Positions 34,296 through 37,899 of a DNA stretch of 64,000 bases are shown piece by piece (positions within the stretch are counted from its first letter, which is position 1; every line of letters starts with the position of its first letter). The stretch spans positions 1 through 64,000 of the forward strand of contig DUBV01000050.1 of NCBI GenBank assembly GCA_012960105.1, given 5' to 3'. This DNA is from Thiotrichaceae bacterium (GTDB taxonomy: Bacteria > Pseudomonadota > Gammaproteobacteria > Eutrophobiales > Eutrophobiaceae). Under the pieces are notes generated by a model that did no database searches, was not told the origin of the DNA, and worked only from the letters and a program-made list of their open reading frames with translations. Made by a program: the position numbers and the translations under genes.

Positions 34296-34996
34296 TGATC
34301 AGATTTACTAACGTTAATATGACTTATGCGGATGGCAACGAAGCCTTACGCAATCTCAATCTACACATTGCTCAAGGCGCAATGGTCTATATCACCGGTC
34401 GTTCCGGCGCGGGCAAAAGTACCTTATTACGTTTGATTGCATTAATTGATCGCCACACTCGTGGACAAATTATTATTAACGGTCAAAACCTTGATCGTGT
34501 ACGCAACAACCGTATTCCATTATTCAGACGTCATATTGGTTTTATGTTTCAAGATCATCGTCTGCTACAAGATCGTACTGTGTTTGATAATGTCGGCTTA
34601 CCTTTAGTAATTGCCGGTTACCGTCATCAGGAAATTCGCAAGCGTGTACAAGCCGCATTAGACAAGGTTAGTCTGTTACCAAAGATAAATAGTTACCCTA
34701 TGTCTCTCTCTGGTGGCGAACAACAACGCGTTGGTGTTGCACGCGCGGTAGTACATCGGCCCGCTATATTGCTTGCCGATGAACCAACCGGAAACCTAGA
34801 TCCAGCCTTGTCCTGGGACACGATGAAACTATTTGAACAGTTTAACCAGGTTGGTGTGACGGTACTAATAGCTAGTCACGATCTGGATATGATCAAGCGC
34901 TTACAAAAACGCATCATCACTTTAAAATCAGGTCGCATATTAACGCATGCCGGAACGCCAATGGAAAAACAAGCGCAGACTAATGAAACCGGTTAA
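34295..34996 (+). CDS. ftsE: Cell division ATP-binding protein FtsE
   Basis: GRSGAGKSTLLRLI, LSGGEQQRVGVARA, LLADEPTGNLDP. Confidence 0.94.
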   Translation: MIRFTNVNMTYADGNEALRNLNLHIAQGAMVYITGRSGAGKSTLLRLIALIDRHTRGQIIINGQNLDRVRNNRIPLFRRHIGFMFQDHRLLQDRTVFDNVGLPLVIAGYRHQEIRKRVQAALDKVSLLPKINSYPMSLSGGEQQRVGVARAVVHRPAILLADEPTGNLDPALSWDTMKLFEQFNQVGVTVLIASHDLDMIKRLQKRIITLKSGRILTHAGTPMEKQAQTNETG

Positions 34997-35966
34997 TAAA
35001 AGAAAAAATACGCGTCCAAATACAAGTTTTAAAAGCGAATTAAAACGTCGCTTTGATATGTGGCTGTTACAACACTTACAGGCGTTTATCTTTAGCCTAG
35101 GCCAATTCGCTAAATATCCTTTAAGCAGCCTTTTAACAAGCGCTGTCATAGGTATTTCACTCGCACTACCCGCCAGTTTTTATATGTTGTTTGATAATGT
35201 TCGTTTCGTATCTTCAAGTTGGGATGGTTCCGTACAAGTCACTTTGTTTTTACAAACAGAGATAAATGATGAACAAGCGGCAACATTCGCAAACAAACTA
35301 AAAGACAATAAAAATATTAACGAAACCACTTTTATTAAACGTGCCGATGCATTGGCCGAATATCAAAAACTTTCCGGCTTCGCAGATGCGCTTAATGCAT
35401 TAGACGAAAACCCATTGCCGAATGTTATTTTAGTTAAGCCTGAGCTCAACAATATTAACGAGTCTGATACGGAAGCGTTAATCAAAGAACTCGAGGCCAT
35501 GCCCGAAGTCGATGCGGCACAATACGACAGCCAGTGGTTCAAACGTTTACTGTATTTACTCGATATTGTTAATCGAGTCATCATCATTCTATCGACACTG
35601 TTGGCTGTTGGCGTATTACTGATTATTGGCAATACCATCCGTTTATCTATCTATAACCGTCGCGCTGAAATAGAAATAACCAAACTCTTTGGCGGTACAG
35701 ATAGTTTCATCCAAAGACCCTTCTTATACAGCGGCCTTTGGTACGGTGCGTTTGGAGGCATCATTGCCTGGCTATTAATTGGCATTTCCATGCAACTACT
35801 CCGAGGACCGGTAAAACAGCTCGCTAACCTGTACGCGAGTGATTTTCAGCTCATAGGTCTCGGTTTCTTCAATTCTCTACTTCTAGTTGGAACAGGCATT
35901 GCTTTAGGCCTATTCGGCTCTTGGATCTCTGTAAAACGCCATTTGCGTGATATAGACCCTGTATAA
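34983..35966 (+). CDS. ftsX: Cell division protein FtsX
   Basis: Overlaps ftsE; FtsX TM topology, LFGGTDSFIQRPFLYSGLWYGAFGG. Confidence 0.93.
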   Translation: MKPVNKRKNTRPNTSFKSELKRRFDMWLLQHLQAFIFSLGQFAKYPLSSLLTSAVIGISLALPASFYMLFDNVRFVSSSWDGSVQVTLFLQTEINDEQAATFANKLKDNKNINETTFIKRADALAEYQKLSGFADALNALDENPLPNVILVKPELNNINESDTEALIKELEAMPEVDAAQYDSQWFKRLLYLLDIVNRVIIILSTLLAVGVLLIIGNTIRLSIYNRRAEIEITKLFGGTDSFIQRPFLYSGLWYGAFGGIIAWLLIGISMQLLRGPVKQLANLYASDFQLIGLGFFNSLLLVGTGIALGLFGSWISVKRHLRDIDPV

Positions 35967-36021
35967 AGCCTTATATTTATCAATAACTTAGACAATAAGC
36001 TAAATTGAACTTTCCAAACTA

Positions 36022-36048
36022 TTAGCACTCATACTCTTGGAGTGCTAA
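36022..36048. promoter_or_regulatory. CIRCE element (HrcA operator) upstream of rpoH
   Basis: TTAGCACTC-ATACTCTTG-GAGTGCTAA: exact CIRCE consensus arms with 9-nt spacer, 41 bp upstream of the rpoH ATG. Confidence 0.88.
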
Positions 36049-36089
36049 AATTAACCCTAATAAAGCTGGTTTAAGGGAAGGAAAAGTTT

Positions 36090-36938
36090 ATGAATCAACT
36101 TACAAATCTACAATTCGCATTACCGACAGGCTCAATTGAGAGCTATATCTCGTCGGTCAATCAAGTGCCTATCCTGTCTTTGGAAGAAGAGCAGGTTCTC
36201 GCTCGACGTTTCCGCGCAGAAGAAGATATCGAAGCAGCGCGTCAATTAGTCATGTCGCATCTACGTTTTGTCGTAAAGATTGCTCGTGGCTATAGCGGCT
36301 ATGGTTTACAACAAGCGGACTTGATTCAAGAAGGCAATGTCGGACTGATGAAAGCGGTAAAACGCTTCGATCCAGGCGTAGGCGTACGACTGGTATCTTT
36401 CGCCGTACATTGGGTACGCGCTGAAATGCACGAATTCATTCTGAAAAATTGGCGCATCGTTAAAATTGCGACAACCAAAGCACAACGTAAATTGTTCTTT
36501 AACATTCGTTCATCAAAAAAACGTTTAGGTTGGTTAAACCAACAAGAGATCAAAGACGTTGCTGAAACGCTAGGCGTCAAAGCCAGCGAAGTTGTTGAAA
36601 TGGAAAAACGCATGAGCAACTACGATGCCGCTTTTGATGGCGCAGCAAGTGATGACGATGAAGAGTCAATTCATGCACCGGCTTTTTATGTAGAAAATAA
36701 AAACGCAGGCCCAGAAGAGTTAATCGAAACAGCGCAGCTTAATGAACAAAACCAAGACTCATTACACAAAGCAATTGCATTGTTAGATGACCGAAGCAAA
36801 GACATTATCGCTAAACGTTGGTTAGCCGAAGAAAAATCAACACTGCATGAACTCGCGGCAGTACACAGCGTCTCAGCAGAACGTATAAGACAAATAGAAA
36901 GTAACGCAATGAAGAAATTGCGGGAAGCAATCACGTAA
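36090..36938 (+). CDS. rpoH: RNA polymerase heat-shock sigma factor RpoH (sigma-32)
   Basis: SLEEEQVLARRF, LVMSHLRFVVKIARGYSGYGLQQADLIQEGNVGLMKAVKRFDP, RWLAEEKSTLHELAAVHSVSAERIRQIE; ftsYEX-rpoH synteny. Confidence 0.97.
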   Translation: MNQLTNLQFALPTGSIESYISSVNQVPILSLEEEQVLARRFRAEEDIEAARQLVMSHLRFVVKIARGYSGYGLQQADLIQEGNVGLMKAVKRFDPGVGVRLVSFAVHWVRAEMHEFILKNWRIVKIATTKAQRKLFFNIRSSKKRLGWLNQQEIKDVAETLGVKASEVVEMEKRMSNYDAAFDGAASDDDEESIHAPAFYVENKNAGPEELIETAQLNEQNQDSLHKAIALLDDRSKDIIAKRWLAEEKSTLHELAAVHSVSAERIRQIESNAMKKLREAIT

Positions 36939-36989
36939 ACATTACAAACTTGATACAGGACGAATCAAGGATGATTAATAAAATATACA

Positions 36990-37014
36990 AATGGCCCTTC
37001 GGGGCCATTTTTTT
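36990..37014 (+). terminator. Rho-independent terminator after rpoH
   Basis: AATGGCCC-TTCG-GGGCCATTTTTTT. Confidence 0.92.
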
Positions 37015-37099
37015 GTAATGAATAATGTCCACTTTTAGTAAATGTTATATCAAGTTGTGCTACTTTCGGCTCAACTTCATCTGCTACAAGACAATGCGC

Positions 37100-37363
37100 T
37101 TAATTGCCGTTCTTCGATATGTACTGTTCGGCATAATAGAGTGCGTTTTGCATATCCGCCGGATCATTAAAATTTCGTGTTCCCCTTCGCTCAAAGATGA
37201 TTAATTTGGTACCAGAGGACAAAGCTTTATTTACCTCCTTGACGTTCACGCGCGCTTGGGAACAAAGGGTTGCTCTATTACTGACATTGGCTAGATCTTG
37301 TTGCTGACCCGTCTGAATGATATCCGCATCGTCTAATATTTGAAGGCATGTTCGTCTCCTTAG
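37100..37363 (-). pseudogene. Possible decayed gene or frameshifted small ORF
   Basis: Stop-free minus frame without a convincing start codon: ...CLQILDDADIIQTGQQQDLANVSNRATLCSQARVNVKEVNKALSSGTKLIIFERRGTRNFNDPADMQNALYYAEQYISKNGN*. Confidence 0.4.
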
Positions 37364-37899
37364 TCAGCCAATTGATCACGGTCAATATGGAAAAAGAACC
37401 CTATTATGACCCTCATGGGCGACCAAGAATTGCAAAGTTAAGAACATAGCAGAAGAAAAATCCGAGGATATAGATGCTCACGCCGTAGGAGCAATAGGTT
37501 TGCTGCGCTGACTGAGACATTTCAAACTTCGAGCACACCATGTTGCCAGAGTTCACACTGCCATTCGTCATAGTCACTTCCTCGAGTCTTATCTGAACGT
37601 CTGCTGACTAAGCTTAGCAATCATTCGAGAACTTATCTATACATCCCTAATTTATAACGGTTTTTCAATTTTCTGACTACTTTTCCAGAAACAAGGCGCC
37701 TTGTAATCAGCGCCATGAAAATGAAGCTATCAATACTCCTGTCTTTGAACTTATTTTTACTCCCAAAACCGCTTCAAAATTATCATATAATTTCAATGAT
37801 CTGGATTAAAAGTATCAGAAAAATAGACATTTTATGCCTATAATTGCTTATGTACGCGTCCGTCAATGGACTACTCAATAAAAAGCAAGAGGAGTTATT

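Follow-up and report, generated by a model that had tools for sequence, protein, structure and literature searches.

The textbook account of rpoH control comes from E. coli, where it works through translation and protein stability, and the locus described here raises the question of whether rpoH can also be governed at transcription by the repressor HrcA. The window, by which we mean the whole stretch of 64,000 nucleotides that was analysed, contains an rpoH gene preceded by a CIRCE element, and the locus is laid out as follows.

34947–35966, + strand: ftsX, the upstream neighbour (TIGR00439)
36022–36048, + strand: CIRCE operator, predicted HrcA site (exact match; one of three in the genome)
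36022–36030, 36031–36039 and 36040–36048, + strand: left arm, loop and right arm of the CIRCE element
36073–36082, + strand: Shine-Dalgarno-like stretch AAGGGAAGGA (sequence reading)
36090–36938, + strand: rpoH, heat-shock sigma factor of 282 aa (TIGR02392 and NF005143; sigma-70 regions 1.2, 2 and 4)
36989–37010, + strand: terminator-like stem-loop and T run 3′ of rpoH (9-bp stem with T tail)

The encoded protein scored 397.8 bits against TIGR02392, above the curated cut-off of 323.1, and 418 bits against NF005143, and sigma regions 1.2, 2 and 4 are all present; its closest named relative is the RpoH of the uncultured gammaproteobacterium isolate OFTM63 (85% identity). The gene order is ftsY-ftsE-ftsX-rpoH, and ftsE-ftsX-rpoH stand in the same order in E. 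coli. Downstream, ∼850 bp separate rpoH from the next gene, and positions 37040–37890 hold no ORF longer than 59 aa, a stretch that is perhaps non-coding or the remains of a gene. The initial annotation had reported an exact CIRCE at 36022–36048, 41 bp before a sigma-32 gene, and both parts were borne out: the 27-bp element matches TTAGCACTC-N9-GAGTGCTAA with 0 mismatches, 41 bases lie between it and the rpoH ATG, and TIGR02392 identifies the gene at 36090–36938 as rpoH. The element sits in the upstream region of a heat-shock gene, where it overlaps predicted −10 elements. It is the sole CIRCE match in the window even when 3 mismatches are allowed, and at this tolerance dinucleotide shuffles led us to expect 0.06 chance matches there, which already argues against a chance 18-base palindrome.

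The source genome (2.54 Mb, 98.5% complete) encodes the regulator that such an operator would need. An hrcA gene and further CIRCE sites were what the initial annotation had proposed to look for, and both were found. A single hrcA lies at C20:20904-21917 in an hrcA-grpE-dnaK-dnaJ cluster, with no internal stop and a score of 350.7 bits (cut-off 197.2) for the whole-protein NCBI model. The HrcA domain is present in its product; the Pfam model of the N-terminal HrcA DNA-binding domain fell slightly under its cut-off (20.0 versus 21). At up to 3 mismatches the genome has three CIRCE sites in total, before rpoH, before groES of groESL (0 mismatches) and in the divergent region between hrcA and nadK (2 mismatches). 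An rpoE gene is also present (TIGR02939, 303 bits), with rseA (RseA_N) adjoining it.

The initial annotation had further suggested checking whether the site is conserved in relatives, and for this we used rpoH and its upstream DNA from 96 genomes related at the level of genus, family or class, in which the presence of hrcA was scored independently of the rpoH CIRCE. Among genomes at least 90% complete, the site was kept in 53 of the 56 that carry hrcA and in 1 of the 12 that do not, leaving three hrcA-bearing genomes without it. With one genome per family and the window's own family excluded, the figures were 21/24 with hrcA versus 1/12 without (p = 6.5e-6; the compared sequences are related, so that p-values in this analysis are inflated and only indicative). 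Within the window's family, all 32 usable genomes of at least 90% completeness have both hrcA and the rpoH CIRCE. A separate sample comprised 80 rpoH genes from named gammaproteobacterial species, of which 47 have a CIRCE with no more than 3 mismatches in the 250 bp upstream; the species without it belong mostly to Acinetobacter, the Halomonas and Aeromonas groups, Alteromonadales and Legionella. A CIRCE before rpoH is thus the usual state in the sampled hrcA-bearing Gammaproteobacteria and no rarity of one genome. Judged by this distribution, control of rpoH by HrcA would appear to be widespread in the class, a difference from E. coli. Some relatives do lack the rpoH site, as would be expected if it were a relic that is no longer bound in this organism. 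Against this, the arms are perfect here and in most of the genus while the spacer varies freely, and hrcA is intact, as are its two further sites, making a relic very improbable.

Several individual loci depart from the common pattern. Genomes with a site before rpoH but no hrcA are mostly incomplete. G068 (L195) differs in being nearly complete; no hrcA was detected in it, and its rpoH is preceded by a CIRCE with one mismatch (arm GGGTGCTAA), possibly an early stage of decay after hrcA loss or the sign of an undetected hrcA. Genome G084 has two rpoH copies (L162 and L165), with a CIRCE before just one. At L181 (G062:C61:202382-202982) tandem CIRCE-like repeats precede rpoH, in which TTAGCAGTC-N9-GAGTGCTAA is followed after a few bases by TTAGCACTC-N9-GAGTGCTAA. 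At L055, L122, L130, L132 and L140, some of them named Pseudoxanthomonas or Luteimonas, the operator itself is altered and pairs TTAGCAGTC with GACTGCTAA, GATTGCTAA or CACTGCTAA; since both arms have changed, the HrcA of this lineage may have a shifted specificity.

We aligned 114 distinct rpoH CIRCE sites and compared them with 30 groES CIRCE sites. Beyond the arms, the rpoH sites are conserved in three places: GGAACTTT at bases 16 to 9 before the repeat; loop positions 1–3, which are TAA and with the left arm give TCTAA; and the three bases that follow the repeat, A, A/C and T, giving TGCTAAAAT, TGCTAAACT or TGCTAATAT. The first two places, 16 bp apart, are read as a sigma-E promoter and the third as an extended −10 element, which places the following putative elements in the window.

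36005–36013, + strand: predicted sigma-E −35 element, TTGAACTTT (GAAC conserved at this offset; letters and spacing as in the E. coli rpoH element)
36029–36033, + strand: predicted sigma-E −10, reading TCATA where the class consensus has TCTAA, 16 bp after GAACTT
36043–36051, + strand: predicted sigma-70 extended −10 element, TGCTAAAAT (consensus scan; right arm plus AAT), predicted start ∼36058

These signatures set the rpoH sites apart from the groES sites. GAAC occurs at −15 or −16 in 79/114 rpoH sites, with at most three at any other offset, and in 0/30 groES sites. The left arm contributes its final two bases to the putative sigma-E −10 and the loop its opening three, and TCNWA is found at this −10 in 71/114 versus 3/30 sites. 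On the other side of the operator, TGCTANNNT is present in 105/114 rpoH sites versus 5/30 groES sites, and T at position 29 in 107/114 versus 5/30. As a group the groES sites show none of the three signatures; they have TTGACA ∼27 bases before the repeat, TATA(A/T)T ending at its first base, and the loop consensus ACT. Hence the operator is placed differently at the two genes: at groES it lies at or just after the −10 of a TTGACA/TATATT promoter, whereas at rpoH it forms the −10 elements. In the window, TGCTAAAAT matches the TGnTAtaaT-like form of an extended −10, and no good sigma-70 −35 was found, TTAGCA at 18 bp being a poor match; a search of the window for a sigma-32 promoter gave no match.

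It could be argued that HrcA controls only the housekeeping promoter with the extended −10, and that the GGAACTT block belongs to a different promoter or is bound by some other factor, or that the sigma-E promoter has degenerated in this genus. The right-arm −10 is indeed far better conserved, TCNAA is seen in just 51 of the 114 rpoH sites, and the sigma-E −10 is weak both in the window and in its genus: set against the sigma-E standard of GGAACTT, ∼16 bp and TCTRA/TCAAA, the window has TGAACTT and a weak TCATA. However, the class-wide consensus (GGAACTT, 16 bp, TCTAA) fits that standard, among the features specific to rpoH sites are a −35-like block and a loop TAA whose 16-bp separation is exactly that seen before E. 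coli rpoH, and the genome encodes rpoE-rseA. We therefore regard control of the housekeeping promoter alone as unlikely, though the most serious of the alternatives, and favour the reading in which the CIRCE is a genuine HrcA operator controlling rpoH transcription and superimposed on both a sigma-E and a sigma-70 extended −10 promoter, to which we would assign, from the sequence comparisons, a probability of about 0.8.

Instead of serving as a DNA operator, the inverted repeat could work chiefly at the RNA level, as a hairpin in the rpoH leader that influences translation or the stability of the mRNA. At position 3 the change of A to G, which keeps a G-U pair, is found in the left arm of 25/114 rpoH sites and its mirror change in the right arm of only 3/114, as a paired RNA might show. 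However, groES sites, whose promoter is placed differently, show the same left bias (5 versus 0 of 30); from both predicted starts transcription would begin within the repeat or beyond it, leaving neither transcript with both arms; and the presence of the site follows hrcA. A hairpin function is accordingly very hard to credit. The same groES bias led us to drop arm asymmetry as proof of overlap with the −10, and a search of the region against Rfam returned only a chance match. We also considered an RNA thermometer of the E. coli type, in which the start region is hidden at low temperature and opened by heat. The predicted accessibility of the start region between 20 and 50°C is flat in the window (0.55 to 0.64) and rises from 0.14 to 0.52 in E. 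coli, so the window looks less structured; yet rpoH genes with and without CIRCE did not differ as groups (accessibility at 37°C, p = 0.18; change with temperature, p = 0.06), and we draw no conclusion from the contrast.

The preferred arrangement, an operator interlocked with two promoters, can be written as a strict composite of GAAC, 14 bp, GCACTC-N9-GAGTGCTA, 3 bp and T, with no mismatch allowed. This composite was found in 116/369 genomes spread over the class, a sample that partly overlaps the sequences from which the pattern was derived, and its reversed control in 0/369. Most of the sites that defined the pattern are from other families, so that the window's fit is largely an independent observation. 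A sample covering the whole phylum gave the composite in the window's genome and 6 further members of the class, and not once in ∼260 genomes from elsewhere in the phylum. Thirty-three of the 35 composite loci that we inspected lie before rpoH, one before clpB and one before hrcA; at L243 (G374:C8:47854-47898) the sigma-E/CIRCE/extended −10 composite precedes a clpB-like gene. Conservation of the position over dozens of families, together with the empty reversed control, refutes a chance origin of the palindrome.

Comparison with known systems separates what is shared from what is particular here. Upstream of E. coli rpoH lies TTGAACTT-N16-TCTGA, which we take to be the sigma-E promoter P3, and the window has TTGAACTT-N16-TCATA, with the GAACTT block and spacing common to both. 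E. coli thus shares the ftsE-ftsX-rpoH order and the sigma-E element but has no CIRCE before rpoH; read from its letters, the E. coli element lacks the operator alone, with the spacing retained, and a search of the E. coli control genome for hrcA gave no match. With the classical HrcA/CIRCE regulon of Bacillus subtilis and others, this genome has in common the operator, the repressor family and the hrcA-grpE-dnaK-dnaJ and groESL targets, and differs in that its third predicted target is the gene for the heat-shock sigma factor. The nearest precedent is Geobacter sulfurreducens, for which an exact CIRCE was predicted computationally at position −51 relative to the start of rpoH (Rodionov et al. 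2004, PMC545781, Table 8), with further sites before hrcA-grpE-dnaK-dnaJ and groESL; the genomes of Geobacter metallireducens and Desulfuromonas, also tabulated in that paper, show no rpoH CIRCE. As in the window, the Geobacter sulfurreducens site is exact and a computational prediction only, so that a bare CIRCE before rpoH is already known in kind. Geobacter is, however, a Deltaproteobacterium, and the portion of that paper covered here describes no promoter overlap, whereas the present case extends across the class in hrcA-bearing Gammaproteobacteria. The promoter interlock, the link to hrcA across families and the restriction to the class were not found in the literature searched, although the 2003 survey covering gamma-proteobacteria, whose profiles PMC545781 uses, may list gammaproteobacterial rpoH sites. 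In the same literature, which included few subscription papers, we found no report of HrcA being tested on rpoH in any gammaproteobacterium.

In the regulation that we propose, HrcA bound to the CIRCE would sterically occupy the −10 regions of both promoters and hold rpoH expression down, so that rpoH would be transcribed when sigma-70 or sigma-E is available and HrcA is absent. GroEL activates HrcA in Bacillus. If the same holds here, misfolded protein occupying GroEL, or heat inactivating HrcA, would open both promoters, the sigma-E promoter opening most when the envelope is also stressed. Derepression would then raise rpoH from the housekeeping start (∼36058) and the sigma-E start (∼36038–36040), and sigma-32 together with derepressed groESL and dnaKJ would restore GroEL, re-activate HrcA and close the loop. 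The initial annotation had proposed that HrcA represses rpoH, and site position, co-occurrence with hrcA and an operator lying on conserved promoter elements now lend this comparative support. Its idea that the two heat-shock circuits are stacked as a cascade keeps the HrcA-rpoH link but loses its simple form, since HrcA sites also stand at hrcA-grpE-dnaK-dnaJ and groESL; HrcA would act on the chaperones both directly, in parallel, and via sigma-32, with the sigma-E promoter as a further input. It had also held that a transcription start downstream of the element would speak against repression. This argument is not valid, because the best predicted sigma-70 start is downstream precisely for the reason that the right arm is its −10, and an operator on a −10 still represses.

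The composite lends itself to precise mutational analysis, in which HrcA binding, the sigma-E start and the sigma-70 start should each depend on bases of their own within the one palindrome. We put at roughly even odds the wider proposal that in HrcA-keeping Gammaproteobacteria one 45-bp element places rpoH under the joint control of envelope stress and of a repressor that senses the chaperonin, and that the E. coli layout is a remnant after hrcA loss. Should most of the gammaproteobacterial families that have kept HrcA use it to gate rpoH, the two classical heat-shock circuits would form one network with GroEL feedback, and the E. coli mode of rpoH control would be a special case.
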